Made by a program: the position numbers and the translations under genes
The notes under the pieces: model-generated
Databases searched by the model: none
Seen by the model: the letters and a program-made list of their open reading frames with translations, nothing else
What the model was told of the DNA's origin: nothing
From: Vicinamibacteria bacterium
Lineage (GTDB): Bacteria; Acidobacteriota; Vicinamibacteria; Fen-336
DNA: 34,420 nt
Assembly (NCBI GenBank): GCA_025923995.1
Contig: JAICEW010000025.1
Location: 1 to 34,420 of the forward strand
Reading direction: 5' to 3'
Shown here: piece after piece, positions 5,583 through 34,420 of the stretch
Layout: the number at the start of each line of letters is the position of its first letter
How positions within the stretch are numbered: the first letter of the stretch is position 1

Positions 5583-6241
5583 CGCCGGCCGACACCATCG
5601 GCCTGCTGGTGGAGACGGCGCCCGGCCCCGGCGTCCTGCACGAGCTGACGGGCGTGATGGCGCGGCACGGCGCGGACATCACGCTGGTCGAGATCCTCGA
5701 GAACAGGGACGACGGCAGCCGCCTCTACTTCGAGGCCGCTCGACCGGCCGCGACCGACGCGCTGGAGCGGGACCTGGGCTCGCTGCCGGTGGTGCGACGC
5801 GTGTCGGTGGTGAAGACGTTCCAGCGCATCTACGGCAAGCGCATCATCATCATGGGGGGCGGCGCCCAGGTGGGCCAGGTGGCGCTGGGCGCCATATCGG
5901 AGGCGGACCGCCACAACATCCGCGGCGAGCACATCTCGGTCGACACCATCCCGCTGGTGGGCGAGCAGACGCTCGCGGACGCGGTGCGCGCGGTCGCGCG
6001 GCTGCCGCGGGCGCGCGTGCTGGTGCTGGCCGGCGCGCTCATGGGCGGAGCCATCGAGGAGGCGGTACGCGAGATCCGGGCGCAGGGCGTGCTCGTCATC
6101 AGCCTCAACATGGCGGGCAGCGTGCCCGACGCCGCCGACCTGGTGGTGACCGATCCCGTCCAGGCCGGCGTGATGGCGGTGATGGCGGTGGCGGAGACGG
6201 CCCGCTTCACGATCGACCGGCTCAGCCGGCGGATCTTCTAG
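5579..6241 (+). CDS. ACT-domain protein resembling DUF5612
   Basis: A 220-residue protein starting at GTG 5579, which overlaps the SDR stop. Residues 1-75 form an ACT-type ligand-binding fold (DTIGLLVETAPGPGVLHELTG, then DITLVEILEN). After a linker, residues 85-215 form a Rossmann-like region with IIIMGGGAQVGQVALGAISEA near 87, VDTIPLVGEQTLADAVRAVA near 121 and SLNMAGSVPDAADLVVTDP near 180. From memory, this layout and wording match DUF5612, a family I associate mainly with methanogenic archaea. ACT domains usually sense amino acids or other small ligands; the output here is unknown. The frame stays open far upstream inside bfr and the SDR, but that extension is out-of-frame shadow. Confidence 0.8.
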   Translation: MTPADTIGLLVETAPGPGVLHELTGVMARHGADITLVEILENRDDGSRLYFEAARPAATDALERDLGSLPVVRRVSVVKTFQRIYGKRIIIMGGGAQVGQVALGAISEADRHNIRGEHISVDTIPLVGEQTLADAVRAVARLPRARVLVLAGALMGGAIEEAVREIRAQGVLVISLNMAGSVPDAADLVVTDPVQAGVMAVMAVAETARFTIDRLSRRIF

Positions 6242-8509: not shown

Positions 8510-8622
8510 GGTCCCTCCGGGCCCCCGGAAGTCGTGGCCCACCTTAGCGCGACCCCGGGGCCCAAGGGAACGGCCAGGTGGCTCGTGCGGGTCCGGACGC
8601 CGTCCTCGGTTATCCTGGGAGC

Positions 8623-9828
8623 GTGAGCCAGACGTACTTCCAGAAGGGCTTCGGGCTGAAGCGCGCGGTGGGTCCCGTCCTCTCGGCCAGCTACGCGAGC
8701 GGCCTGGTGGACCGCCTCAAGGAGCTGGACTACGCGGCCCGCGCGGGCGAGATCGAGCTGCGGCTGGCCCGCGAGTTCGGGTTCTGCTACGGCGTGGACC
8801 GCGCGGTCGAGTACGCGTACGAGACGCGGCAGCAGTTCCCGCAGCGGCGGATCTTCCTCTCGGGCGAGATCATCCACAACCCGGAGGTGAACGGCCGCCT
8901 GCAGGACATGGGCATCCGCATCCTGCCCGAGCAGGCCGACGCGATCGCGCGCTACGCCGAGGTGCAGGCGGGGGACGTGGTGATCCTGCCGGCCTTCGGC
9001 GTGACCGTGGCCGAGATGGAGCACCTGCGCGCGACGGGCTGCGTCCTGGTGGACACCACCTGCGGGAGCGTGCTGAACGTCTGGAAGAACGTCCACAAGT
9101 ACGCGCGCGAGGGGTTCACCGCGGTCATCCACGGCAAGCACTACCACGAGGAGACCAAGGCCACCGCCTCGCAGGCGCTCACGCACGAGGGGGGCCAGTA
9201 CCTCTGCGTGCGCGACAAGGACGAGGCGGAGGCGGTCTGCGCCTTCATCCGCGGGACGGTCGCGGCCGACGAGATCCGGGAGCGGTTCGCGCACGCGGCC
9301 AGCCCCGGGTTCGATCCCGCGCGCGACCTGGGGAAGCTGGGACTGGCCAACCAGACGACGATGCTGATGAGCGAGAGCCTGGAGATCCAGGAGATGCTGC
9401 GCAGCGCCATGCGGGAACGGTACGGCGACGCCGGGCTCGCGGAGCGCTTCCGCGCCTTCGACACCATCTGCTCCGCCACCCAGGACCGGCAGGACGCGGT
9501 CCTGCGCATGCTCGAAGACAAGCCGCTCGACCTCATGGTCGTGATCGGCGGCTTCAACAGCAGCAACACGCAGGCGCTGGCCCGCATCTGCGCCGCCAAG
9601 CTGCCCACCTTCCACATCGACGGGCCGGACTGCATCGACGGGGACGCCATCCGCCATCGACGGCTGGGCGAGCACCACGACTCGCGGAGCGAGGAGTGGC
9701 TGCCGCCAGGCCCCGTCCGCCTGGGCCTGACCGCGGGCGCCTCCACGCCGAACAACGTGGTGGGCGAGGTCGTGCGCCGCATCCTGGCCCTGCGGGGCCT
9801 CACACCCGACGACCTGCGGGCGGCCTGA
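8623..9828 (+). CDS. ispH: 4-hydroxy-3-methylbut-2-enyl diphosphate reductase (long form)
   Basis: IspH catalyses the last step of the MEP pathway, making IPP and DMAPP with a [4Fe-4S] cluster. Motifs in order: EFGFCYGVDRAV, GEIIHNPEVNGRL, DTTCGSVLNVWKN, NQTTMLMSESLEIQ, DTICSATQDRQ, GGFNSSNTQ and TAGASTPNNVV. The cysteines in FCYG, TTCG and TICS are the three cluster ligands. At 401 residues it is the long type known from cyanobacteria and plants rather than the roughly 310-residue E. coli type. GTG 8623 gives MSQTYFQKGFGLK; a TTATCCT-like box (8610-8616) ends only 6 bases before it, so initiation may be nearly leaderless. It diverges from the secreted beta-sandwich gene. Confidence 0.96.
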   Translation: MSQTYFQKGFGLKRAVGPVLSASYASGLVDRLKELDYAARAGEIELRLAREFGFCYGVDRAVEYAYETRQQFPQRRIFLSGEIIHNPEVNGRLQDMGIRILPEQADAIARYAEVQAGDVVILPAFGVTVAEMEHLRATGCVLVDTTCGSVLNVWKNVHKYAREGFTAVIHGKHYHEETKATASQALTHEGGQYLCVRDKDEAEAVCAFIRGTVAADEIRERFAHAASPGFDPARDLGKLGLANQTTMLMSESLEIQEMLRSAMRERYGDAGLAERFRAFDTICSATQDRQDAVLRMLEDKPLDLMVVIGGFNSSNTQALARICAAKLPTFHIDGPDCIDGDAIRHRRLGEHHDSRSEEWLPPGPVRLGLTAGASTPNNVVGEVVRRILALRGLTPDDLRAA

Positions 9829-18355: not shown

Positions 18356-21196
18356 ATGCTGAGCGCCCTGGTCGCCACCGTCCTGGCCGCTTCCCCCGCC
18401 CCGACGAAGGCGCCCGCGGAGGTCGTCAAGCCGATCAACGAGCTCCTCGTGCGCGGCAAGTACGCCCAGGGGCTGGCCCAGGCCGAGGCCCTCGCACGGC
18501 GGGCCGAGCGCGAGAACAACGTCGCCCTGCAGGCGCGCGCGCTGCTTCTCGCCTCGGACGCCCTCTACTACCTGAACCGCCAGCCGGAGTCGAAGCCCGT
18601 CATGGAGCGCGCGCTGGCGCTGTCCCAGGGCATCGACGACCCGGAAGGGATCGGGCGCGCGTACTACTCACTCTCGTTCCTGTACGAGCGCACCGAGCCC
18701 GAGCGCATGGTACGCCTGCTGGAGACGGCCTGGCCGTACGCCCAGCGCAGCGGCGACGCGCGCCTGCAGATGCTCGTGCAGAACGGCCTGGGCAGCGCGA
18801 AGTACACCCTCAACCGGGCCACTGACGCGCTCGTCCACTACCGCGAGTCGGTGCGCCTCGCGCGCGAGCTCAAGGAGGAGCACAGCCTGGCGGTCGCCCT
18901 CTGCAACATCGGGCTCATGGAGCAGCACCGGGCCCGCTACGCCGAGGCGGAGGCGGCGCTCCAGGAAGCGGGCGCGCTGCACGACCGGTTCGGCCCCTCC
19001 GTGCAGGCGGGGCTGGTCCTGGTGAACCTGGGGCTCGTCGCGCGCAGCCGCGGCGAGCCGGAGAAGGCGATGGCGCTCTACGAGCGCGCCCTCGCCCTCT
19101 ACGAGCAGTTCGGCTACCAGCGCTACGTCAGCGGGCCGCTGACCACGCTGGCGGAGCTGCACGAGGAGCAGGGAGACGCGGACGCCGCCGAGAAGATGCG
19201 CCGCCGCGCGCTGGGAATCGCGCAGGCCGCGAACGATCCCATCCGCGCCGTCGAGCTCCTCTCGCAGCTCGCGCGCCAGGCCGCCGCGCAGGGGCGCGAC
19301 CGCGAGGCCGACGAGCTGCTGGAAACGGCCGCGGCCGCCGCGCGGAGCCACGGCGATCCCGGCCTGCGCCTGGAAGTGGCCCTCACGCGCTCCCGCCTGA
19401 GCCTGCGCCGCGGGGACGGCGCGTCGGCCCTGGCCGCGGCCGAGGAGGCGACCCGCATCGCGCGCGAGGGCGACGACCCGCAGATGGAGGGCCTGGCCGA
19501 CCACCAGCGCGCCGAGGCCCTGGCGGCCCAGGATCGGCTCGAGGACGCGGCGGCGGCCTGGCAGCGCGCCATCGCCCGCTACGAGGACACGGCCACGTCC
19601 CGGCACCTGCACGTCTGGCACGGCCGGCTGGCCCGCGTCCTCGTCGCGCTGGGCCAGGACGCGCGCGCGCGCGTGCACTTCGAGGAGAGCCTGCGGCGGA
19701 CGCGCGACCTCGAGCGCGTCCTCGCCATCGACCGCTTCCGGCTGAGCCTCTTCGACGAGGTGGCGGACGTCCATCGCGAGTACGCGTGCTGGCTGGCGGC
19801 GCGGGGCGAGGCCGAGCGGGCCTGGCAGGTGCTGGAGCAGGGGCGCACGCGCGAGCTGCGGCTGCGGCTGGCGCAGGGCGGCCGGGGCCCGGACCCGACG
19901 CCGGAGGAGCGCGAGGCTCTGGCGCGGGTGAGCCTGCTGCAGCGCCGGCTGCGCGAGGAGGCCATGGACCGCGACGAGCGCCGCGCGCTGTCGCGAGCCC
20001 TCGCGCAGGCCGAGGACGACTACGAGCAGTCGCGGCGGCGCGCCCAGCGGGGCCGCGCGCCGTCCGCGGAGCCAGACGACGGGATCCTGGAGTTCGCGGA
20101 GGGCGTGACCGTGGTCGAGTACGCGCTGGCGGGCCCGCGGCTGCTGGTGCTGAGCCGCCGCGAGGGCGTCACCCGCGCGCGCCTGGCCGACGCGACGGGC
20201 CTGGCCGAGCGCGTGCGCGACCTGCGCGCGAGCGCCGCGGACGCCACCCGTCCCTTCGCCGCGGAGGCGGCCCGTGCGCTGGCCGAGCTGCTCCTGGGGC
20301 CGGAGACGGCGGGCCTGCCGCCCGGCCGGGTGGTGATCGTGCCCGACGACGCGCTGCACACGCTGCCCTTCGCGGCGCTCGTCGCGTCCGACGGGAGCTT
20401 CCTCGGCGAGCGGCTCGTGATCTCGACGGCGCCGTCCCTCGCGGCCTGGCACGAGCTGCGTTCGCGCTCGACCGCGCCCGCCGCGCGCACGCTGGCGGTG
20501 ATGGCCAACACCCGCTTCGTGGACGGCTCGGGCGAGGCCGAGCGTCCCCGCCTGGCCGCGGCCGCCGCGGAAGCGCGCGAGGTCGCGGGGCGGGCCGCCA
20601 ACCCGCTGCTGCTGCTGGACGCGAGCGAAGCGCGTCTCAAGCGCGAGCCGCTGGGCGACTTCCAGGCGCTGCACTTCGCGACCCACGTGGAGATCGACGA
20701 AGGGCGGCCGGAGCGCTCGCGCATCGTGCTGGCGGCGGGGGAGAGCGAAGACGGGTTCCTGCAGGCGCGGGAGATCGAGCGCATGCGCCTCAACTGCCGG
20801 CTGGCGGTCGTCTCCGGCTGCCGCAGCGGCGAGGGTCGCATCTTCGGCGGGGAGGGGGTGGTGGGCCTCTCGCACGCGTTCTACACCGCGGGCGCCCGCA
20901 GCCTGCTCATGAGCCTGTGGGACGTGAGCGACGAGAGCGCGGCCGCCCTCATGCGCCTGTTCTACGAGGCGCTGCCCGGCCGCACGCCGGCCCAGGCGCT
21001 GCAGCGCGCGCAGCGCGGCCTGCGCCGGTCGCGGCGGTTCGACCACCCCGCGCACTGGGCTGCGTTCTTCGTCTCGGGCGACGCCGACCAGCGGCTCGAC
21101 CTCGGCAGGGGCTGGCCCTGGTGGGCCCACCTGGCCTGGATCCTGCCCCTCGCGACCCTCGGCGTGGTGCTGATGGCCAGGCGCCATCCGAGGTGA
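18356..21196 (+). CDS. TPR-CHAT protein, putative membrane-anchored caspase-like protease
   Basis: A 946-residue protein. Residues 1-19 are hydrophobic (LSALVATVLAAS) and may be a signal sequence, though without N-terminal charges. Residues 25-480 are helical TPR-like repeats (for example AEAEAALQEAGALHDRFG, PEKAMALYERALALYEQFGY). A charged coil lies at about 480-570, and the CHAT domain covers about 573-910. The CHAT catalytic pair is visible: H777 in LHFATHVEI and C822 in VVSGCRSGEG. A hydrophobic segment near 922-940 (HLAWILPLATLGVVLMARR) could anchor the C-terminus. CHAT proteins are caspase-clan cysteine peptidases, often fused to TPRs that sense a trigger. Its divergent neighbours are an ECF sigma and a membrane anti-sigma factor. 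No start codon lies upstream in frame (TAG at 18335). Confidence 0.9.
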   Translation: MLSALVATVLAASPAPTKAPAEVVKPINELLVRGKYAQGLAQAEALARRAERENNVALQARALLLASDALYYLNRQPESKPVMERALALSQGIDDPEGIGRAYYSLSFLYERTEPERMVRLLETAWPYAQRSGDARLQMLVQNGLGSAKYTLNRATDALVHYRESVRLARELKEEHSLAVALCNIGLMEQHRARYAEAEAALQEAGALHDRFGPSVQAGLVLVNLGLVARSRGEPEKAMALYERALALYEQFGYQRYVSGPLTTLAELHEEQGDADAAEKMRRRALGIAQAANDPIRAVELLSQLARQAAAQGRDREADELLETAAAAARSHGDPGLRLEVALTRSRLSLRRGDGASALAAAEEATRIAREGDDPQMEGLADHQRAEALAAQDRLEDAAAAWQRAIARYEDTATSRHLHVWHGRLARVLVALGQDARARVHFEESLRRTRDLERVLAIDRFRLSLFDEVADVHREYACWLAARGEAERAWQVLEQGRTRELRLRLAQGGRGPDPTPEEREALARVSLLQRRLREEAMDRDERRALSRALAQAEDDYEQSRRRAQRGRAPSAEPDDGILEFAEGVTVVEYALAGPRLLVLSRREGVTRARLADATGLAERVRDLRASAADATRPFAAEAARALAELLLGPETAGLPPGRVVIVPDDALHTLPFAALVASDGSFLGERLVISTAPSLAAWHELRSRSTAPAARTLAVMANTRFVDGSGEAERPRLAAAAAEAREVAGRAANPLLLLDASEARLKREPLGDFQALHFATHVEIDEGRPERSRIVLAAGESEDGFLQAREIERMRLNCRLAVVSGCRSGEGRIFGGEGVVGLSHAFYTAGARSLLMSLWDVSDESAAALMRLFYEALPGRTPAQALQRAQRGLRRSRRFDHPAHWAAFFVSGDADQRLDLGRGWPWWAHLAWILPLATLGVVLMARRHPR

Positions 21197-22033: not shown

Positions 22034-22069
22034 CGATTACCGGCCCACGCGGACCCCTGCCTTAGAATG

Positions 22070-22099
22070 ACCGAGGCGGCCGTACAGGGCCGCTTCGGT
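22070..22099 (+). promoter_or_regulatory. 12-bp hairpin in the fabI-lptD gap
   Basis: ACCGAGGCGGCC (22070-22081) pairs with GGCCGCTTCGGT (22088-22099) with one G-U pair and a GTACAG loop. It begins two bases after a TAGAAT box (22063-22068) and ends nine bases before the likely lptD start. It could be a weak fabI terminator without a T run, or a leader structure controlling lptD. Confidence 0.45.
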
Positions 22100-22108
22100 T
22101 CCTCGAAC

Positions 22109-24472
22109 GTGCGCTTCACCAGAACCTCCCTGACGATCGCGATCGCCCTCTGTGCAGGCGCGGTGTCGGCGCAGGCGCCCGCTCCCAGCCCGACGCCGAG
22201 CCCGGCCAGCCCCGCCCCCGCCTCACCGGCGCCGGCCAGCCCGGCGCCGAGCCCTGCGCCCGCCGGGACGGCCGCGGCGCCACCCGCCGTTCCCGAGGCC
22301 GCGCCCGCGCCCAACCCGGAAGAGGCGCCCTGCGACCCGGGGAAGGGCGACGTCTGCGTGAACGCGGAGCAGCTGCGTCGCAACGAGAAGAACCACCTGA
22401 GCTGGGAGGGCTTCGTGGACCTCCAGTTCGGCGACGGGCGCATCCAGGCCGAGCGGCTCGACCTCTACACCGAGGAGAAGCCGGACGGCACCACCGAGCG
22501 CCGCGTCGAGGCCGCGGGCAACGTCGTGTTCCTGCGCGGCGACGAGCGCCTGTCGGGCGAGCGGCTGGTGATGGACCTCGGCACCGGGAAGGGCACCTTC
22601 GAGAACGCGTTCGGCTACGCGGAGCCGGGCGTGTTCGTGGAGGCGAAGAAGATCGAGCGGGTGGACCCGCACACCTACCGCATCCACGGCGGGAAGTTCA
22701 CCTCCTGCGCCCAGCCGAACCCCCGCTGGAACTTCTCGGCCTCCTCCGCCACGCTCAAGGTGGACAAGCGGATCACCGCCACCAACGTGGTGTTCCGCGT
22801 GAAGGAGGTGCCGGCGTTCTACGTGCCCTACTTCGTCTACCCCATCGAGCAGGACCAGCGCTCGACGGGCTTCCTGTTCCCGCACTTCGGCCGCTCCAGC
22901 ACCCGCGGGTTCAACATCGGCACCGGGTTCTTCTGGGCCATGAACCGCAGCTGGGACCAGACCTTCTACGCCGACTACTTCTCGGAGTTCGGCCACGGTT
23001 TCGGCCACGAGCTGCGCTACGCGCTGGCCTCGCCCTCGCGCGCGACCTTCCGCACGTACTTCTTCCGTCGGGCGGAGGACGGGGCCCTGGAGCACGACTT
23101 CAACTGGACCGCGGTCCAGATGCTGCCGGGGCGCGTGCGGGCCAACCTCCTGGTGCAGGAGACGAGCGACCTCACCTTCCAGGAGCAGATCCACGACAAC
23201 CTGGACTACGCGCTGCAGCGCAACCGCCGCACGTCCCTGAGCCTGCAGCGCGCGTTCGGCCCGCACAACGTCCAGCTGCTGGCCGACTCGGTCGACACCT
23301 TCTTCCCCGACGGGGACCAGGTCATCCAGCGCACGCAGCGCCACCTGCCGCTGCTGCGGGTGAACGGCTCGCCCAAGAAGGAGAAGCACACCGGGCTGGT
23401 GCTGGGCTACGAGGCGCGGGCGGAGAACATCGGCAACGGCGACGAGAACGGGATCGACAAGTACTCGCGCTACGACGTCTACCCGCGCCTGTCGCGGCCG
23501 TTTTCGCTCTCCTTCCTGCAGTTCACGCCCGAGGTGCAGGCGCGCGGCACGCGCTACAGCGCGAGCGAGGTGCCGAACGAGGGGCTCACGGGCGGGCCGC
23601 TCACGCGCAAGTACTTCGAGACCAACGTCGACATGCGGGGCCCCATGTTCTCGCGCGTGCTCAACACGCCCGGCAACTTCTACTCCGAGCGCTACAAGCA
23701 CGTGATCGGCCCGGAGGTCACCTGGACCTTCCGCAACGGCGTGGGCGAGGAGTTCCTCTTCCTGCCCAAGTTCGACGGCAACGACTACATGGTGGACACC
23801 AACGAGTTCCGCTACGCGCTCGTGCAGCGTCTCTACTCGAAGCGGCCGTCGCGCACCGGCCGGCTCGAGCCCTACGAGTTCTTCACCTGGCGGATCTCGC
23901 AGACCTACTACAAGGAGGAGGCCGCCAGCGAGTTCGACCCCAACTACTCGAACCTGCTCTACGGCGAGACGGCGGTGCGTAGCAACTTCTCCCCGCTGCG
24001 GTCCCAGATGCGCTTCCGGCCCACGGAGAGCGTGCAGGGCAACTTCACCCTGCAGTACGACACCAAGTTCCACTACACGCGCAACGTCGACGTCTCGCTG
24101 GGGCTCAACTACCAGCGCTTCGGGCTCGACACCGGCTGGTCCCGGGCCGTGCGCCAGGGAGCCAACCCCGACAACCGCAGCCTCACCATCAACACCGTGC
24201 GCAGCGGCGCGCGCCTGAGCCTGCTGCCCGGGCGGTTCGTGGTGGAGGGGCGCGGGGACTACAACTTCATCGACGACCGGTTCATGCAGATCTCCGCCCG
24301 CGCCCGCTACGACGTGCAGTGCTGCGGGTTCATGGTGGAGTGGATACAGTCCGACTTCGGGTTCCGCGAGAAGGAGCGGCAGTTCCGCTTCTCCATCGAG
24401 CTGGCCAACATCGGCTCCATGGGAAACTTCATGGGCCAGGCGGCCGGCGGGCTCTCGGGTTACATGAGATGA
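22109..24472 (+). CDS. lptD: LPS-assembly protein LptD
   Basis: A 787-residue outer-membrane protein that inserts lipopolysaccharide into the outer leaflet together with LptE. GTG 22109 gives a compact signal peptide (RFTRTSLTIAIALCAGAVSAQA); ATG 22067 would add 14 residues and lies in a TAGAAT box. A long Pro-Ala-Ser linker follows (about residues 24-70). An OstA/LptA-like beta-jellyroll runs from about 85 to 240 (VEAAGNVVFLRGDERLSGER), leading to VPAFYVPYFVYPIEQDQRST and FLFPHFGRSSTRGFNIG, then the beta-barrel. Cysteines occur near the N-terminus (CDPGKGDVC), in FTSC, and as an adjacent pair (QCCGF) near the C-terminus. This parallels the interdomain disulfides of E. coli LptD. Its stop overlaps rfbB (ATGA). 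Confidence 0.95.
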   Translation: MRFTRTSLTIAIALCAGAVSAQAPAPSPTPSPASPAPASPAPASPAPSPAPAGTAAAPPAVPEAAPAPNPEEAPCDPGKGDVCVNAEQLRRNEKNHLSWEGFVDLQFGDGRIQAERLDLYTEEKPDGTTERRVEAAGNVVFLRGDERLSGERLVMDLGTGKGTFENAFGYAEPGVFVEAKKIERVDPHTYRIHGGKFTSCAQPNPRWNFSASSATLKVDKRITATNVVFRVKEVPAFYVPYFVYPIEQDQRSTGFLFPHFGRSSTRGFNIGTGFFWAMNRSWDQTFYADYFSEFGHGFGHELRYALASPSRATFRTYFFRRAEDGALEHDFNWTAVQMLPGRVRANLLVQETSDLTFQEQIHDNLDYALQRNRRTSLSLQRAFGPHNVQLLADSVDTFFPDGDQVIQRTQRHLPLLRVNGSPKKEKHTGLVLGYEARAENIGNGDENGIDKYSRYDVYPRLSRPFSLSFLQFTPEVQARGTRYSASEVPNEGLTGGPLTRKYFETNVDMRGPMFSRVLNTPGNFYSERYKHVIGPEVTWTFRNGVGEEFLFLPKFDGNDYMVDTNEFRYALVQRLYSKRPSRTGRLEPYEFFTWRISQTYYKEEAASEFDPNYSNLLYGETAVRSNFSPLRSQMRFRPTESVQGNFTLQYDTKFHYTRNVDVSLGLNYQRFGLDTGWSRAVRQGANPDNRSLTINTVRSGARLSLLPGRFVVEGRGDYNFIDDRFMQISARARYDVQCCGFMVEWIQSDFGFREKERQFRFSIELANIGSMGNFMGQAAGGLSGYMR
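22175..22320 (+). repeat. low-complexity Pro/Ala/Ser-coding stretch in lptD
   Basis: Short GC-rich repeats encode SPAP/ASPAP units in the linker between the LptD signal peptide and the jellyroll. Such linkers vary in length between strains; here it probably spaces the periplasmic domain from the barrel. Confidence 0.7.
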
Positions 24473-25473
24473 AGACGCTCGTCACCGGCGGGGCCGGGTT
24501 CATCGGCTCCAACTTCGTGCGCCACCTCGCGCGCACGCATCCCGACTGGCCGATCGTGGTGCTGGACAAGCTCACCTACGCCGGCCGGCGCGAGAACCTG
24601 CAGGACCTCGAGGGGCACCCCGGCTTCGAGTTCGTGCAGGGCGACATCACGGACCCCCAGGCGGTGGCCCGCACCATGGACGGCTGCGCCTACGTCGTGA
24701 ACTTCGCGGCCGAGACGCACGTGGACCGCTCGCTCTACGACGCGGGCAGCTTCATCCACACGGACGTGCACGGCACGTTCGTGCTGCTGGAGGAGGCGCG
24801 CCGGAGCCGGACGCTGCGCACGTTCGTCCAGATCTCGACCGACGAGGTGTACGGCAGCGTTCCCACCGGCTCCTCGCGGGAAACGGACCCGCTGATGCCG
24901 CGCAACCCGTACTCCGCGAGCAAGGCGGGCGCCGACCGGCTGGCCTACTCCTACTGGGCCACCTACGGGCTGCCGGTGCTGGTCACGCGCGCCTCCAACA
25001 ACTACGGGTCCCACCAGTTCCCCGAGAAGATCATCCCGCTGTTCGTCACCCACGCGATCGACGACATCCCGGTCCCGCTCTACGGCGACGGCCTGAACGT
25101 GCGCGACTGGCTGCACGTCGACGACCACTGCCGCGCGGTCGAGATGCTGCTGACCCAGGGGGCGCCGGGCGAGACCTACAACGTGGGCGGCGGCAACGAG
25201 GTCCCGAACATCGAGCTGACGAAGCGCATCCTGGCGCTGGTCGGCAAGCCGGAGAGCCTCATCCAGCCGGTCACCGACCGCATGGGGCACGACCGGCGCT
25301 ACAGCCTCGACTGCTCGAAGCTGCGCGCGATGGGCTGGTCGCCGCAGGTGCCCTTCGAGCGGGGGCTGGCCGAGACGGTCGAGTGGTATCGGGCGCATCC
25401 CGAGTGGTGGCGGCCGCTCAAGGAGGCGAACCCCGCGTTCCGCGAGCACTACCAGCGCCACTACCGGGGCTGA
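24469..25473 (+). CDS. rfbB: dTDP-glucose 4,6-dehydratase
   Basis: A 334-residue extended SDR that converts dTDP-glucose to dTDP-4-keto-6-deoxyglucose, an early step to rhamnose and other deoxysugars of LPS. Motifs: TGGAGFIGSN at residues 6-15, NFAAETHVDRSLYDAG near 80, STDEVYGS, the catalytic YSASK, and ASNNYGSHQFPEKIIPLFV. GDGLNVRDWLHVDDHCRA is the RfbB sugar-nucleotide signature. ATG 24469 overlaps the lptD stop. The remaining rhamnose genes (rfbA, C and D) are not in this window. Confidence 0.94.
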   Translation: MKTLVTGGAGFIGSNFVRHLARTHPDWPIVVLDKLTYAGRRENLQDLEGHPGFEFVQGDITDPQAVARTMDGCAYVVNFAAETHVDRSLYDAGSFIHTDVHGTFVLLEEARRSRTLRTFVQISTDEVYGSVPTGSSRETDPLMPRNPYSASKAGADRLAYSYWATYGLPVLVTRASNNYGSHQFPEKIIPLFVTHAIDDIPVPLYGDGLNVRDWLHVDDHCRAVEMLLTQGAPGETYNVGGGNEVPNIELTKRILALVGKPESLIQPVTDRMGHDRRYSLDCSKLRAMGWSPQVPFERGLAETVEWYRAHPEWWRPLKEANPAFREHYQRHYRG

Positions 25474-25484
25474 GCGGAAGAGCC

Positions 25485-26459
25485 TTGCGCGTCCTGGTCA
25501 CGGGCATCGCCGGCTTCGTGGGGACGCACCTGGTGGACTTCCTCCAGCGACAGGACCCGGCGCCGGATGTCTTCGGCCTGGTCAAGCCCAGGGGCACGTT
25601 CCCGGACCTGCCGCCCGCCGTGACGCTCATCGAGGCGGACCTGGAGGACGCCGCGTCGGTCGAGCGCGCGATGGACTCGGTGGTGCCGGACCGCATCGTG
25701 CACCTGGCGGCGCAGAGCAGCCCGCAGCTGTCGTGGGCCGACCCGGCCGGCACGTTCCGCACGAACGTGCTGGGCCTGCTGCACGTCCTGGAAGGCGTCC
25801 GCAAGCGGGGCCTCGCGCCCCGGACGCTGGTGGTGGGCAGCGCTGAAGAGTACGGCCTGGCCGACGCGCGCGACCTGCCCCTGCGCGAGGACGCGCCGCT
25901 GCGTCCGCAGTCGCCCTACGCCTCCTCCAAGGTGGCCCAGGGCTTCCTGGCCCTGCAGTACACGCTCGCCTACCGCCTGCCGATCGTGCGCACGCGCACG
26001 TTCCACCACACGGGCTCGCGCCGGGGCGAGGCCTTCGCGGAGAGCGCGTTCGCGCGCCAGCTGGCCGAGATCGAGGCGGGCCTGCGTCCGCCCCTCGTGA
26101 GCGTGGGCAACCTGGAGGCCGTGCGCGACTTCACGGACGTGCGCGACGTGCTGCGCGCGTACTGGCTGCTGCTGGACCGCGGCGTGCCGGGCGAGGTGTA
26201 CAACGTGTGCAGCGGCCGCGGCGTCCGCATCGGGGACCTGCTGGACCTGCTGATCCGGCTCTCGGGCGCCGACGTCGAGGTGAGGGTGGACCCGCAGAAG
26301 GTCCGCCGCGCGGAGATCCCGGAGGTGGTGGGCGATCCGTCCCGCATCCGGGAGGCCACGGGCTGGCAGGCCGACGTGCCGCTGGAGCGGACGCTGCGCT
26401 TCCTGCTGGACGGGTGGCGCGAGCGCCTGGCGCAAGCGCCTCCCGCGGCGTCGCGTTGA
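25485..26459 (+). CDS. GDP-mannose 4,6-dehydratase/Rmd-family SDR
   Basis: A 324-residue extended SDR. TGIAGFVGTHLVDFL at the N-terminus binds the nucleotide. HLAAQSSPQLSWADPAGTF near 73, VVGSAEEYGLADA, the catalytic YASSK, RTRTFHHTGSRRGEAFAESA and VGNLEAVRDFTDVRDVLRAY match GDP-sugar dehydratases and GDP-6-deoxymannose (GDP-4-keto-6-deoxymannose) reductases. The exact reaction cannot be decided from sequence alone. The start is TTG 25485, with GGAAGAG seven bases or so upstream and the protein beginning RVLVTG. Its stop overlaps the next start (TTGA, 26456-26459). It follows rfbB by 11 bases, so the sugar-nucleotide genes are one transcript. Confidence 0.88.
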   Translation: MRVLVTGIAGFVGTHLVDFLQRQDPAPDVFGLVKPRGTFPDLPPAVTLIEADLEDAASVERAMDSVVPDRIVHLAAQSSPQLSWADPAGTFRTNVLGLLHVLEGVRKRGLAPRTLVVGSAEEYGLADARDLPLREDAPLRPQSPYASSKVAQGFLALQYTLAYRLPIVRTRTFHHTGSRRGEAFAESAFARQLAEIEAGLRPPLVSVGNLEAVRDFTDVRDVLRAYWLLLDRGVPGEVYNVCSGRGVRIGDLLDLLIRLSGADVEVRVDPQKVRRAEIPEVVGDPSRIREATGWQADVPLERTLRFLLDGWRERLAQAPPAASR

Positions 26460-27433
26460 AGGTCCTCGTCACCGGGGGCACCGGCTTCCTCGGCAAGAAC
26501 GTCGCGCGGCGGCTGGCGGCGGCCGGCCACTCGCTGCGCCTGCTGGCGCGCGCGGGCAGCAAGCTCGAGGGGCTGCCCACCGACGCCGAGATCGTCCGCG
26601 GAGACGTCGCGGACGCGGAGTCGCTGCGCCTGGCCGCGGCCGGCTGCGACGCGATCGTCCACATGGCGGCCATGGTCAAGATGTGGACGACCGACCGGTC
26701 GCAGTTCGACCGCGTGAACGTGGACGGCCTGCGCAACGTGCTGGATGCGGCCGACGCGGCGCGTGCGCGCGTCGTCTACACGTCTTCGTTCATGGCGCTC
26801 GGCCCCGCCGGTCCCGCGCCGGGCGACGAGTCGCTCGTCCATCCGGGCTCTCCGCGCAACGACTACGAGCGCACCAAGGCGGCGGCGGACGTCGTCGCGC
26901 GCGCGGCGGCCGCGGCCGGCCGCGACATCGTCATCCTCTACCCCGGTGTCGTGTACGGCCCGGGCGACCTGACCGACGGCAACATCGTCGTCAAGATGGT
27001 CAGCGACCACCTCACGGGCCGCTTCCCCGGCATCGTCGGGCCCGGCGACCGGCTGTGGTGCTACTCGTTCGTCGAGGACGTCGTGGAGGGGCACCTGGCG
27101 GCGCTCGAGCGGGGACGGTCGGGCGAGCGCTACATCCTGGGTGGCGAGAACGTCTCCATGGACGGGCTGTTCGAGACGCTGCACGCGGTCTCGGGCAGGA
27201 AGCCGCCACCCCTCCACATCCCGTATCCCGCCGCGTCCGCGCTGGGCTACGCCTGCGTCGCCTGGGCGGAGCTGACGGGCCATCCGCCGCTGCTCACGCA
27301 CGAGGTGGTGGGCGTGTTCCGCGAGCACTGGGCCTACACGAGCGCGAAGGCGGAGCGGGAGCTGGGATACCGTACGCGTCCGCTGCGCGAGGGACTGCAG
27401 CGGACGGTCGCGTGGCTGAAGGAGCGCGCATGA
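26456..27433 (+). CDS. extended SDR, HpnA/dihydroflavonol-reductase-like
   Basis: A 325-residue NAD(P)-dependent protein with TGGTGFLGKNVARRL at the N-terminus, VHMAAMVKMWTTDRSQFD near 70, VVYTSSFMALGP near 102, the catalytic YERTK, LYPGVVYGPGDLTDGN near 162 and GERYILGGENVSMDG near 225. The last motif and the C-terminal SSAKAERELGY-like ending (TSAKAERELGYRTRPL) resemble hopanoid-associated HpnA epimerases and flavonol-reductase-like SDRs. The substrate is unknown; its position before an isoprenoid kinase and a prenyltransferase makes an isoprenoid or lipid-linked role attractive. TTG 26456 overlaps the previous stop, and the long upstream frame is shadow. Confidence 0.85.
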   Translation: MKVLVTGGTGFLGKNVARRLAAAGHSLRLLARAGSKLEGLPTDAEIVRGDVADAESLRLAAAGCDAIVHMAAMVKMWTTDRSQFDRVNVDGLRNVLDAADAARARVVYTSSFMALGPAGPAPGDESLVHPGSPRNDYERTKAAADVVARAAAAAGRDIVILYPGVVYGPGDLTDGNIVVKMVSDHLTGRFPGIVGPGDRLWCYSFVEDVVEGHLAALERGRSGERYILGGENVSMDGLFETLHAVSGRKPPPLHIPYPAASALGYACVAWAELTGHPPLLTHEVVGVFREHWAYTSAKAERELGYRTRPLREGLQRTVAWLKERA

Positions 27434-27455: not shown

Positions 27456-28796
27456 ATGCCGCTCACCGCGTCCGAAGCCAGGCGCAAGCTGGTCCACATC
27501 GGGGTGGGGGGCTTCGCGTTCCTGCTGCGCGACCTGACCTGGCCCCAGGCGGTCGCGATGGCCGTGGCCGCGTTCCTGTTCAACCTGATGCTGCTGCCGC
27601 GCATCGGCGGCAAGGGCATGTGGCGCGAGCACGAGCACGGGCGAGGCTACCCGCTCGGCATCCTGCTCTACCCGCTCGCGGTGCTGGCGCTGATCCTTGT
27701 CTTCCACGATCGGCTCGAGCTGGCGGCCGCGGTCTGGGGCATCCTCGCCTTCGGCGACGGGATGGCCTCGATCGTCGGACAGGCCGCGGGCGGACCGCGC
27801 CTGCCCTGGAACCCGCGCAAGGGCTGGGCGGGGTTCCTGGCGTTCGTCGTCTTCGGCGCGCTGGGAGCCGCGATCCTGATGGGGTGGACGCTGCGGCTTC
27901 CTCCGTCGGCCTGGCTCTCGCCCTGGATCCTCGGTCTCGTGCTGCCCGTGACGCTGTTCTGTGCGCTGGTCGAGTCCCTGCCCACCACGCTCGACGACAA
28001 CCTCACGGTCCCGCTGGCCGGAGCGGTGATGCTGCCGCTGCTGCTCGACGCCTCCCCGTCCGCGCTGCTCGCGCATCCCGACCTCGTGCGTCGCGCGCTG
28101 CTGGGGCTCGCGATCAACGCGGCCTTCGCCGGCTTCGCGTTCTGGCAGCGGTCGATCGACTTCGCGGGCGGGCTGTCGGCCGTGCTGATCGGCGTCGCCA
28201 TCACGGTCGGGCTGGGGCTGCCCGGGCTGTTCGTGATGATCGCGTTCTTCGTCCTCGGCAGCGCCGCCACGAAGCTGGGCTACCGCGTGAAGGCGGCGCG
28301 GGGGATCGCGCAGGAGAAGGGCGGCGCCCGCGGCTGGCGCAACGCGTGGGCCAACGGCGGCGTCGCCGCGTTCCTGGCGCTGATGGCGGCGCTCGACCCG
28401 CCGCGCGCCGGGCTGTACGCGGTCGCGTACGCGGCCGCGGTCGCGACGGCCGCCGCCGACACCTGCTCGTCCGAGATCGGCAAGGCCTACGGCCGGCGCA
28501 CGTTCCTGATCACCACGCTCCGCCCCGTCCCGCCCGGTACCGAAGGCGCGATCAGCCTGGAGGGCACGCTGGGCGGCTTCGCGGGCGGCGCGGTCGTCGC
28601 CGGCGTGGGCGCGCTGGGAGCCCTCTACTCGTGGCCCGTCGCGGGGCTGGTCGCGCTGGCGGGCCTGCTGGGCAGCCTGGCCGAGAGCGTGATCGGCACC
28701 GTCGCCGAGCGCCACGGCTGGCTCGACAACGACCTCCTGAACGCCTTGAACACCGCGCTGGGCGCGGCTATCGTGGTCGCCTTCGTGCGCTGGTAG
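27456..28796 (+). CDS. fused phytol-kinase/phytyl-phosphate-kinase-like protein (VTE5-VTE6 fusion)
   Basis: A 446-residue polytopic membrane protein made of two domains. Residues 1-210 match CTP-dependent polyprenol/phytol kinases (VTE5, dolichol kinase family): ARRKLVHIGVG, RGYPLGILLYP, AFGDGMASIVGQ, PWNPRKGWAG and ESLPTTLDDNLTVPL. Residues 220-446 match DUF92/VTE6: the catalytic-looking ADTCSSEIGKAYGRRTFL, LRPVPPGTEGAISLEGTLGG, and the end SVIGTVAERHGWLDNDLLN. In plants VTE5 phosphorylates phytol and VTE6 adds the second phosphate to give phytyl diphosphate. One chain would therefore carry out both steps, salvaging a free prenyl alcohol. ATG 27456 starts 22 bases after the SDR; a UbiA prenyltransferase follows by 11 bases. 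Confidence 0.87.
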   Translation: MPLTASEARRKLVHIGVGGFAFLLRDLTWPQAVAMAVAAFLFNLMLLPRIGGKGMWREHEHGRGYPLGILLYPLAVLALILVFHDRLELAAAVWGILAFGDGMASIVGQAAGGPRLPWNPRKGWAGFLAFVVFGALGAAILMGWTLRLPPSAWLSPWILGLVLPVTLFCALVESLPTTLDDNLTVPLAGAVMLPLLLDASPSALLAHPDLVRRALLGLAINAAFAGFAFWQRSIDFAGGLSAVLIGVAITVGLGLPGLFVMIAFFVLGSAATKLGYRVKAARGIAQEKGGARGWRNAWANGGVAAFLALMAALDPPRAGLYAVAYAAAVATAAADTCSSEIGKAYGRRTFLITTLRPVPPGTEGAISLEGTLGGFAGGAVVAGVGALGALYSWPVAGLVALAGLLGSLAESVIGTVAERHGWLDNDLLNALNTALGAAIVVAFVRW

Positions 28797-28807
28797 GAGC
28801 CTCTTCG

Positions 28808-29752
28808 ATGTCCACCGCCGTCAGCGTCCCGCCCGCCTCACCCGGCCGGGTCAAGGTCTACCTCGACTTCGCGCGGCCCTTCACGCTGCTGCCGCCCGCG
28901 CTGGGCGTGGTCTCGGGCGCGGTCACCGCCTGGGGCGCCGGCCACCTGAAGCCGCCGGTGACCTGGTCGCTGGTCATGCCCGTCGTCTACGGCGCGCTGA
29001 TGGCGGCGGTGCTCAACGCGGCCAGCAACGCCATCAACCAGATCTACGACCTCGCGATCGACCGCGTGAACAAGCCCAAGCGCCCGCTGCCCTCCGGCAC
29101 CATGACCATGGCGGAGGCCTGGTGGTTCACGATGGCGACGTTCGTGCTCGCCTGGGTTCTGGCCTGGCTGGCCTCGCCCGACGCGCGGCACGAGTGCTTC
29201 TGGATCGTCCTGTTCACGAGCGTGCTGGTCTGGGCCTACTCGGCTCCGCCCTTCCGCACCAAGCGGCACGGCATCTGGGCGAACGTGACCATCGCGATCC
29301 CGCGCGGCGTGCTGCTGAAGGTCGCGGGATGGTCGACCGTGAAGACGGTGATGGGCGTGGAGCCGTGGTTCATCGGCGCCATCTTCGGCCTCTTCGTGCT
29401 GGGCGCCTCGTCCACCAAGGACTTCGCCGACATCGAGGGCGACCGCGCGGACGGCTGCCAGACGCTGCCGATCCTCTACGGCGTGAAGAAGGCGGCCTGG
29501 ATGATCGCGCCCTTCTTCGTGCTGCCCTTCGTGCTGATCCCGATCGGCGTGTGGCTGGGGATCCTGACCGGCAACCGCACGCTGCTGCTGATCCTGGGCC
29601 CCGCGCTCGTCGCCTACGGCATCTACACGACCTGGCTGCTGGTGCGCCGTCCCGAGGAGCTGGCCGCGACGGAGAACCACCCGTCGTGGACGCACATGTA
29701 CATGATGATGATGGTCGCGCAGGTCGGCTTCGCGCTGGCCTACCTGTTCTAG
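28808..29752 (+). CDS. UbiA-family prenyltransferase
   Basis: A 314-residue membrane protein with about eight to nine helices and both Asp-rich motifs that bind Mg-diphosphate: NQIYDLAID followed by RVNKPKRPLPSG near residues 78-99, and DFADIEGDRADG near 207-218. The family joins a prenyl diphosphate to an aromatic or other acceptor (quinones, tocopherols, chlorophyll, heme O). The second motif followed by QTLPILYG recalls chlorophyll-synthase and homogentisate-type enzymes, but I cannot name the acceptor. The gene lies 11 bases after the kinase fusion with GGAG upstream, so the prenyl diphosphate made there is the likely donor. It ends six bases from the convergent grpE. Confidence 0.92.
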   Translation: MSTAVSVPPASPGRVKVYLDFARPFTLLPPALGVVSGAVTAWGAGHLKPPVTWSLVMPVVYGALMAAVLNAASNAINQIYDLAIDRVNKPKRPLPSGTMTMAEAWWFTMATFVLAWVLAWLASPDARHECFWIVLFTSVLVWAYSAPPFRTKRHGIWANVTIAIPRGVLLKVAGWSTVKTVMGVEPWFIGAIFGLFVLGASSTKDFADIEGDRADGCQTLPILYGVKKAAWMIAPFFVLPFVLIPIGVWLGILTGNRTLLLILGPALVAYGIYTTWLLVRRPEELAATENHPSWTHMYMMMMVAQVGFALAYLF

Positions 29753-32430: not shown

Positions 32431-34420
32431 TCAGCGGCCGAGCCGTCCGGGGCCCATCACGATGAAGCCGCCCCAGTAGAACGGATGCGCGTAGCGGCGG
32501 TCGGACTTGACCGAAAGCGCGGCCGTGCGCAGCGCGTCCGCCGTTCCGCGGCCTCCCGACAGCGCGCGGTGGAAGGCGACCATCAGCTTCGAAGTGCTCT
32601 GCGAGTCGACCTTCCACTGGCTCACGACCGTGGCGGGGCAGCCCGCGACGGCGAACGCCCAGCTGAGCCCGATCAGGCCCTCGCCGCGCCCGGGCCGTCC
32701 GCGTCCCGTCTCGCACGCGGAGAGGACCGCGACGTCGGCGCGCAGGTCCATCTCCATGATCTCCCACGCCTCGAGCAGCCCGTCCTCGGCCTCGCCGGGC
32801 GCGGGGCGCGCCAGCACCAGCTGCGAGTAGAGCGGGCTCGCGTCGTTGAGCAGGCCGTGTGCGGCGAAGTGCAGGAGCCGATGGCGTGCCGCCTCCGCCT
32901 TGACCCGCGCCTCGCGCGCCTCATCGCCGACGTACACGACGCTGCCGGCTCCGTACAGGCGGCCCAGCGCGCGCACTTCGTCCGCCGCCTCGGGCAGCGG
33001 ACCCAGGTCCGCGCCGCGATGCAGGGACGCCACCTGCCGCCGCTGGCGCTCGTCCACCGTGGGATCGCCCAGCGCCAGCAGCCCGAGCGTCTGGCCCACC
33101 CGCTGGGGGCGCCGGCTCATCTCGTGGAGCGCGGTGAACGAGGGGACGTACGCGACCGCGCGGTCCTCCAGCAGGTAGCGCCCCGGCCGGCACTCGAGCG
33201 CCTGGAAGGGCAGCTCCCACAGCGGCCCGTCGGGCACGACGACGAGCCGGTCGAAGGACGGCAGCTCGCGGCGCACGGGCCCCAGCAGCGTGGCACACAG
33301 GTCCCGGGCCTGAGCGCGCACGCCCAGGTCGCGCGCGGCCAGCGCCTCGCGGAAGCGCCGCGTGCGCTCCTGCAGCGCGCGCCGGCCGGCCGCGAGGGCG
33401 TGGAGCTTCAGCGGGCCCGAGCGGGACAGGGCGAACAGGTACGTCTCGTCGTCGGTGACGGCGTAGGAGACCGCGAGGGTCCGCTCGTCGAGCAGCGCGC
33501 GCGTGTCCTCCAGGCGCCAGGGCGCCGTCTGCCCGCTCCGCGTGCGGATCTCCGGATGGGCGGCGAAGACCTCGCTGCGGAAGGCCTCGTACTGGCGCCG
33601 GGCCTCCCGCAGGGTCTCGCGCGCGGCGGCGAGCCCGGCCGGGTCGGCGGGCTCCGCCCGCTCGCGCTCCTGGGCGCGCGCGCCGGCGCGCGCGAGCGCC
33701 TCGCGCAGGGACGTCTGCCGCTCGCGCTCGGACGCCGTGAGCAGCGAGTCGAGCCGCGTCCGGCCGCCGCCCAGCGCCTCGACCAGCGCGCGGGCTCGTC
33801 CCCGCTCCGCCTGGGCCAGCGCGGTCTCCGCCCGGCCCTGGCGCGCGCTGAGCCGCATCAGGCCCTCGTACGACGAGGTGTTGAGCTCGAGGAACCTCTG
33901 CTTCTCCACCTCGTCGCCCGCCACCTGGTCGCGGAGCGCTTCGGTGGCGCGGATGGAGTGCTCGAAGGCCGCGGCCGCCTCCTCGTCCCGTCCCAGCGCG
34001 GCCAGCGCGATGCCCTTCGCGTTCCACGCGTCCGCGCGACGGCGATCGCTGTCCAGGCGCTCCGCCGCGGCCAGCGCCTCGTCGGCCGGCGGCAGCGCCG
34101 CGGGGGCGCGGCCCAGCTGCACCAGCGTGAGGGCCTGCTGGCACAGGATCGGGATCAGCGCGTCGAGGTTCCCGCCGCGGACCACACCGACCGCGCGCTC
34201 CCCTTCGGCGGCGGCCTCCTCGTTGCGGCCGTCCTCGAGCGCCAGCCGCGCCAGCTCGGAGTGCGCCAGCGCGGCCGCTTCCCGGGCGCCCCCCTTGCCG
34301 GCCAGGGCGGCCGACTCCTCCAGGCTCGCGCGCGCCTCGGCGCTCCGTCCCAGCTCGGTCAGCACGCTGGCCGCCTGCACCCGCTCGAAGATCGCGCCGA
34401 ACTCGTTGCCCAGCTTCTCC
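32431..34420 (-). CDS. second TPR-CHAT protein, 5' end outside the window
   Basis: The frame is open at the right edge, so the N-terminus is missing; 662 residues are visible. The first 180 or so are TPR-like helices (AEARASLEESAALAGKGG, DEALAAAERLDSDRRRADAW, DEEAAAAFEHSIRATEAL). A long charged coil follows (ERERQTSLREALARAGARAQ), then a C-terminal CHAT domain of about 330 residues. The CHAT catalytic His is in LLHFAAHGLL (codon 32857-32859) and the Cys in LSACETGRG (codon 32713-32715). It ends FYWGGFIVMG followed by PGRLGR, a normal CHAT end with no membrane anchor, unlike the protein at 18356. A caspase-like protease or scaffold role is inferred. No partner gene is visible in this window. 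Confidence 0.9.
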   Translation of the reverse strand, partial: EKLGNEFGAIFERVQAASVLTELGRSAEARASLEESAALAGKGGAREAAALAHSELARLALEDGRNEEAAAEGERAVGVVRGGNLDALIPILCQQALTLVQLGRAPAALPPADEALAAAERLDSDRRRADAWNAKGIALAALGRDEEAAAAFEHSIRATEALRDQVAGDEVEKQRFLELNTSSYEGLMRLSARQGRAETALAQAERGRARALVEALGGGRTRLDSLLTASERERQTSLREALARAGARAQERERAEPADPAGLAAARETLREARRQYEAFRSEVFAAHPEIRTRSGQTAPWRLEDTRALLDERTLAVSYAVTDDETYLFALSRSGPLKLHALAAGRRALQERTRRFREALAARDLGVRAQARDLCATLLGPVRRELPSFDRLVVVPDGPLWELPFQALECRPGRYLLEDRAVAYVPSFTALHEMSRRPQRVGQTLGLLALGDPTVDERQRRQVASLHRGADLGPLPEAADEVRALGRLYGAGSVVYVGDEAREARVKAEAARHRLLHFAAHGLLNDASPLYSQLVLARPAPGEAEDGLLEAWEIMEMDLRADVAVLSACETGRGRPGRGEGLIGLSWAFAVAGCPATVVSQWKVDSQSTSKLMVAFHRALSGGRGTADALRTAALSVKSDRRYAHPFYWGGFIVMGPGRLGR

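Follow-up and report, generated by a model that had tools for sequence, protein, structure and literature searches.

A fused VTE5-like and DUF92 protein co-inherited with a separate clade of UbiA prenyltransferases in Acidobacteriota

Phytol salvage depends on a pair of enzymes, the phytol kinase VTE5 and the phytyl-phosphate kinase VTE6, which are known from plants (Arabidopsis) and cyanobacteria (PMC9782597). In these organisms they are two separate proteins that feed tocopherol and phylloquinone. COG1836 has been linked through genome context to phytol-phosphate metabolism, and it is essential in Synechocystis (PMC3223725). Euglena longa keeps both VTE5 and VTE6 enzymes in its non-photosynthetic plastid (PMC7580956), so the pair has been seen before in a setting that lacks photosynthesis. 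Prenol salvage kinases have so far been identified in few organisms. Here we describe an Acidobacteriota version in which both domain types, with the same predicted order of reactions, are fused in one chain, and which, unlike the plant and cyanobacterial pair, is linked with another UbiA clade as well as with an HpnA-like short-chain dehydrogenase/reductase (SDR). In the literature covered, which does not include vom Dorp et al. (2015) on VTE6, a paper that may mention bacterial fusions, no description was found of the one-chain form, of its distribution in Acidobacteriota or of the UbiA clade. A one-chain kinase of this kind would be a handy enzyme for the production of phytyl- or geranylgeranyl-diphosphate.

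The window, that is, the whole stretch of 34,420 nt analysed here, is a contig of a Vicinamibacteria draft genome. It includes the following run of genes, in which the fusion and the UbiA gene are together called the cassette:

22067..24472, + strand: lptD, LPS transport outer-membrane protein (Pfam LptD, 1.4e-14)
24469..25473, + strand: rfbB, dTDP-glucose 4,6-dehydratase (TIGR01181, 435.7 bits, cut-off 365.1)
25485..26459, + strand: SDR2, nucleotide-sugar reductase of the GDP-6-deoxyhexose reductase type (2pk3, E 8e-83; TTG start)
26456..27433, + strand: HpnA-like extended SDR (HpnA / 3beta-HSD-like; TIGR03466 HpnA, 262 bits)
27456-28796, + strand: fusion ORF, ATG...TAG, 446 aa
27456..28118, + strand: N-terminal half of the fusion, residues 1-221, VTE5-like (phytol/prenol kinase-like; hhalign and structure comparison)
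28116..28796, + strand: C-terminal half of the fusion, DUF92 (VTE6-type, prenyl-phosphate kinase-like; PF01940 and structure comparison)
28808-29752, + strand: UbiA-superfamily prenyltransferase, 314 aa (PF01040, E 4.7e-39), starting 11 nt past the fusion

The genes lptD and rfbB overlap (ATGA), as do those for SDR2 and the HpnA-like SDR (TTGA), and the remaining gaps are 11 nt (rfbB to SDR2), 22 nt (HpnA-like SDR to fusion) and 11 nt (fusion to UbiA). Because the genes overlap or sit 11-22 nt apart, this spacing suggests that the whole run from lptD to UbiA forms one transcript. The first-pass annotation had pointed to upstream SDRs and lptD as a sign of an envelope setting and to a UbiA prenyltransferase 11 bases downstream of the fusion; the former are present as this tightly packed run, and the position of the latter is exact. 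The best solved relative of SDR2 is a GDP-6-deoxy-D-lyxo-4-hexulose reductase (2pk3). The next SDR scores below the cut-off for HpnA, the hopanoid-associated sugar epimerase (262 against 367.65 bits), and its closest solved structure, 3wj7, is a "putative oxidoreductase", hence only the name HpnA-like is kept. The block from lptD to UbiA is kept across much of the class Vicinamibacteria, and among 48 loci with the lptD-type arrangement, 43 have lptD upstream of the fusion.

The C-terminal half of the fusion is a member of DUF92: residues 220-437 match positions 2-251 of the PF01940 profile (E 1.8e-57, 195 bits, cut-off 27.5), in agreement with the first-pass placement of residues 220-446, and TIGR00297 gives 185 bits, below its cut-off of 205.85. 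Its motif ADTCSSEIGKAYGRRTFLITTLRPVPPGTEGAISLEGTLGG is nearly identical to SDTCASEVGKAYGQRTFLITTLKPVPRGTEGAVSLEGTLAG of cyanobacterial DUF92 proteins. Over residues ~1-220, Pfam and NCBIfam gave zero matches. In cyanobacterial genomes this N half finds proteins of 233-244 aa with 28-31% identity (best E 1.9e-7), which, judging from their length and motifs, are presumably the characterised phytol kinase. Alignment with the cyanobacterial VTE5-like proteins by hhalign reaches 99.2% probability (E 1.7e-19) over 181 columns, and the motifs RK.VH, GDG.A...G, K...G and DNLTVP are common to both. The N half thus has the profile similarity and the motifs RK..H, GDG..(A/S)..G, K..(W)..G and DDN(L/I/V)(T/S)VP by which VTE5-like proteins (COG0170, CTP_transf_1) are recognised. 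The Pfam model CTP_transf_1 itself matches neither the window's N half nor the cyanobacterial VTE5-like proteins, and it matches the fusion homologue of Aminicenantes (L106; 28.9 bits, cut-off 24). Because of the cyanobacterial matches, the hhalign result, the shared motifs and the Aminicenantes match, the VTE5-like identity of the N half appears to hold well at the family level, and the initial claim that one polypeptide carries both domains stands. A sequence search of solved structures found no relative of the fusion, and no fused protein was found on plasmids, where matches to DUF92 are partial only.

How widely is this pair of genes distributed? The search covered 193 Vicinamibacteria genomes and, for the phylum, 396 evenly sampled genomes of Acidobacteriota. 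In the class, the fusion or parts of it occur in 70 genomes, UbiA in 63 and both in 60; in two of the three genomes with UbiA only, UbiA sits at a contig end. In the phylum sample the fusion query matched in 160 genomes, in at least 120 of them as a fused protein (some are cut at contig ends, and the weakest matches fall outside this count), and UbiA was found in 106. All of these 106 genomes also carry the fusion, including cases in which the two genes lie on different contigs. Conversely, the fusion occurs without the cassette UbiA in at least 14 phylum genomes, in some beside rfbB-SDR2 only, and none of the 26 DUF92-only genomes among the matches listed has the cassette UbiA. Pairs on the same contig are adjacent and on one strand, with UbiA downstream of the fusion, in 66 cases out of 77. 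The first-pass annotation had staked its reading on such a conserved neighbour, which is borne out here, and the other VTE5-VTE6 fusions that it proposed to look for have turned up in those genomes in two gene arrangements. Among the loci viewed, the best 80 of 303, the order in Vicinamibacteria is lptD-(rfbB)-SDR2-(HpnA-like)-fusion-UbiA and that in Terriglobia is UbiA-(HpnA-like)-fusion, with no lptD, rfbB or SDR2 nearby. The HpnA-like SDR adjoins the fusion in both, so that the persisting trio is fusion, UbiA and HpnA-like SDR. Because the order is rearranged in Terriglobia, the link between fusion and UbiA is more than mere synteny, and this rearrangement is a better argument for functional coupling than the co-occurrence p-value (Fisher, 1.8e-81), which ignores shared ancestry. 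Over 30 loci UbiA is the most conserved of four proteins (mean identity 72%, against 52% for SDR2, 51% for the fusion and 41% for LptD), and the distances of fusion and UbiA correlate with r 0.88 over 48 loci. Many Acidobacteriota, including non-photosynthetic soil and water bacteria, carry the fusion co-inherited with UbiA. In six Terriglobia-type loci the fusion is followed by a radical SAM / DUF3641 protein (e.g., L105, 3746-4699).

By a slight balance of probability, the fusion is predicted to be a bifunctional CTP-dependent prenol kinase that supplies a diphosphate to UbiA for an isoprenoid lipid. The outline of the proposed process is as follows: initially, the VTE5-like half would add a first phosphate to a free phytol- or geranylgeraniol-like prenyl alcohol at the membrane, where the DUF92 half would then convert the monophosphate to the diphosphate. 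UbiA, made from the same putative transcript, would join this prenyl diphosphate to a hydrophobic acceptor to give an isoprenoid lipid, and the co-inherited HpnA-like SDR may carry out an oxidation or reduction on either the acceptor or the product. What the analysis establishes is the domains, the motifs, the fold class, the conserved linkage and the separate UbiA clade; the reactions, their order, CTP as the donor and the coupling of the fusion to UbiA are what we infer. The genome of the window, a 6.8-Mb draft, encodes FPP/GGPP-type polyprenyl-diphosphate synthases, geranylgeranyl-reductase-family proteins and IspH. Since these synthases and IspH, an enzyme of the MEP pathway, let it make prenyl diphosphates itself, salvage is not its sole source of them; this supply leaves the need for salvage unexplained and counts against the salvage reading. 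The first-pass proposal that the fusion could turn a prenyl alcohol into its diphosphate keeps the two domain types on its side.

Several loci depart from this scheme. In one family (f3; L053, 9187-10823), a DUF92 protein of 240 aa, its catalytic motif altered, comes directly after lptD and is itself followed by the cassette UbiA; the VTE5 domain is absent at the locus, which makes it a natural reduced version. In genus g3 (L056, L060) the order is rfbB-SDR2-fusion, the HpnA-like SDR and UbiA being cleanly missing, and whole-genome searches of this genus found no UbiA of the cassette clade. In Aminicenantes (L106, L125) a fusion of ~30% identity comes directly after rfbB-SDR2, with UbiA absent. 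As family f3 has DUF92 and UbiA without VTE5 at the locus, salvage is not the whole story, and the exceptions together indicate that the parts of the cassette are separable and argue against a strictly obligatory role in alcohol salvage. The original description as a complete salvage and transfer cassette is supported for the two-kinase architecture and the coupling to UbiA, and its completeness is at most putative: the HpnA-like SDR travels along and makes the cassette larger than first described, family f3 lacks VTE5 at the locus, and genus g3 and Aminicenantes lack UbiA.

The UbiA-less loci of genus g3 and Aminicenantes, with the fusion beside rfbB-SDR2, would also fit recycling of a polyprenyl carrier, in which the fusion phosphorylates a long, undecaprenol-like polyprenol for an envelope glycan together with rfbB, SDR2 and lptD, and UbiA is a later partner. 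The frequent presence of lptD upstream of the fusion points the same way. However, a monophosphate carrier needs no second kinase to the diphosphate, the Terriglobia trio has no rfbB, SDR2 or lptD nearby, and the fusion is present in every sampled genome with UbiA; we consider such a role unlikely.

Structure models bear on the chemistry of the two halves. The AF2 model of the whole fusion has a pLDDT of 95.4 and a pTM of 0.92, and that of the N half alone a pLDDT of 89.9. Plain Foldseek against the PDB gave no significant match for the whole fusion or for the N half alone. With another aligner, which ranked ~1000 candidates per half and gave Z-scores that are modest for helical proteins, the C half, in its residues 318-446, has CarS (5guf, Z 9.4) and then CdsA (Z 7.6) on top, and the N half CdsA (Z 8.9) and then CarS (Z 7.6). 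The intramembrane CTP-transferase fold of CdsA (CDP-DAG synthase) and CarS (CDP-archaeol synthase) thus heads the structural ranking of both halves; the two enzymes differ in being single-domain cytidylyltransferases that act on phosphatidate or an archaeal lipid phosphate, and their identity to the fusion is 14-19%. A profile match between the N half and the C half is weak (26% probability, E 7e-4) with the catalytic motifs aligned, which is suggestive of an internal duplication. Because both halves rank CdsA and CarS first and their motifs align, albeit weakly, a tandem of CTP-transferase domains is supported, and we read the fusion as a predicted tandem CTP-dependent prenol/prenyl-phosphate kinase feeding UbiA. 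CdsA and CarS transfer CMP to lipid phosphates. The same ranking of CarS and CdsA for residues 318-446 would also fit a DUF92 half that is a cytidylyltransferase of this type, turning the monophosphate into a CDP-prenyl or another activated prenyl compound; we hold this to be improbable, as UbiA enzymes take diphosphates, DUF92/COG1836 is tied by genome context to phytol-phosphate metabolism (PMC3223725), and plant VTE6 mutants are deficient in pathways that depend on phytyl-PP (PMC9782597).

In the predicted kinase scheme, the diphosphate would be used by the neighbouring UbiA, which, besides its PF01040 match, has the three motifs of the superfamily intact: D81-x3-D85, Y144...K152 with YSxPPxRxK, and the second Asp motif D205/D208/D212. 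These catalytic motifs are common to the UbiA superfamily (PMC9385802). In a maximum-likelihood tree, in which the cyanobacterial and Acidobacteriota reference labels come from motifs and grouping and the BchG and DGGGPS labels from database annotation, the cassette UbiAs of Vicinamibacteria and Terriglobia form a single clade outside the ChlG, BchG, HPT, DGGGPS, cyanobacterial UbiA, MenA, MqnP-like, CyoE and DPPR-like groups. The comparison with homogentisate, chlorophyll-synthase and lipid clades proposed in the first pass thus places the protein in none of them. The sister group is cyanobacterial HPT, with moderate to weak support (93/84). All NCBIfam scores are far below their cut-offs: 135 against 269 bits for PRK12884, 124.6 against 313 for ChlG, 101.5 against 212.3 for BchG, 106 against 296 for DGGGPS and 96.4 against 226 for HPT. 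By score and by clade, the protein falls neither with the chlorophyll or bacteriochlorophyll synthases nor with the homogentisate phytyltransferases. EboC was also rejected (45 bits against 250), as was decaprenyl-phosphate phosphoribosyltransferase, for which the genome has a separate DPPR-like gene (L004) that groups apart. MenA/MqnP and CyoE were set aside as well, since the genome has three further UbiA-family genes, which by motifs and tree resemble MqnP, CyoE and DPPR, respectively.

Candidate acceptors were considered through the enzymes that would accompany them. HPPD makes homogentisate. No full-length HPPD was found in the window's genome (best E 2.8e-4), and HPPD is present in just 14 of the 63 cassette genomes and missing from 49; homogentisate was rejected as the acceptor on this ground. 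The tocopherol reading was likewise rejected, tocopherol cyclase being found in none of the 193 class genomes in a search without a positive control (the control genomes yielded only a single weak ring, with nothing above the cut-off). An archaeal-type glycerol ether lipid was rejected too, as no GGGPS/PcrB was found in the window's genome; archaeal DGGGPS shares with the cassette UbiA the superfamily, the Asp-rich motifs and the NKPxRPLPSG stretch, and differs in forming a separate clade. Because HPPD is mostly missing and tocopherol cyclase and GGGPS were not found, an acceptor other than homogentisate or an archaeal-type one is indicated, and the acceptor is probably neither homogentisate, chlorophyllide nor geranylgeranylglycerol phosphate.

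Could the cassette nevertheless make a known lipid, with UbiA an ordinary homogentisate phytyltransferase, chlorophyll synthase or DGGGP synthase? The weak sister grouping with cyanobacterial HPT (VTE2), the shared motifs (LNQ..D..ID, NKP, YSxPPxRLK, KDxxDxEGD, RG) and the moderate ChlG, DGGGPS and HPT model scores would agree with this, but the separate clade, the shortfall of every score and the missing partner enzymes leave it very unlikely. That the genes are an old operon kept without functional coupling, as the class-wide synteny of the lptD-rfbB-SDR2 block and the neglect of phylogeny in the p-values might suggest, is hardly credible given the same pair in the second, Terriglobia arrangement without those three genes and the 106/106 conditional presence, even across contigs.

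The reading of the fusion as a two-step prenol kinase serving UbiA can be carried further. The UbiA of this new family probably attaches a recycled isoprenoid chain to a molecule, and its near-constant association with the fusion among the sampled genomes hints at an isoprenoid lipid not yet described, in a phylum that is large and poorly cultured. In a fuller version, which we offer only tentatively, the fusion, which would have originated from two joined members of one CTP-transferase fold, would capture or recycle an alcohol, possibly plant phytol from soil, for transfer by the new UbiA to a new acceptor, the HpnA-like SDR finishing the product. A direct, testable expectation is a prenylated compound that cassette strains contain and that their close relatives lacking the cassette do not.

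Some other genes of the window are also recorded. A LytB/IspH gene of the MEP pathway (416 aa, 8578-9825) lies ~18 kb upstream, and LytB/IspH homologues are found upstream in the related loci L035, L038 and L039 too. Two proteins with CHAT domains and TPR repeats flank the region (18356-21193 and 32434-34380, the latter on the - strand), and an ACT + DUF5612 protein of unassigned function is encoded at 5600-6238.
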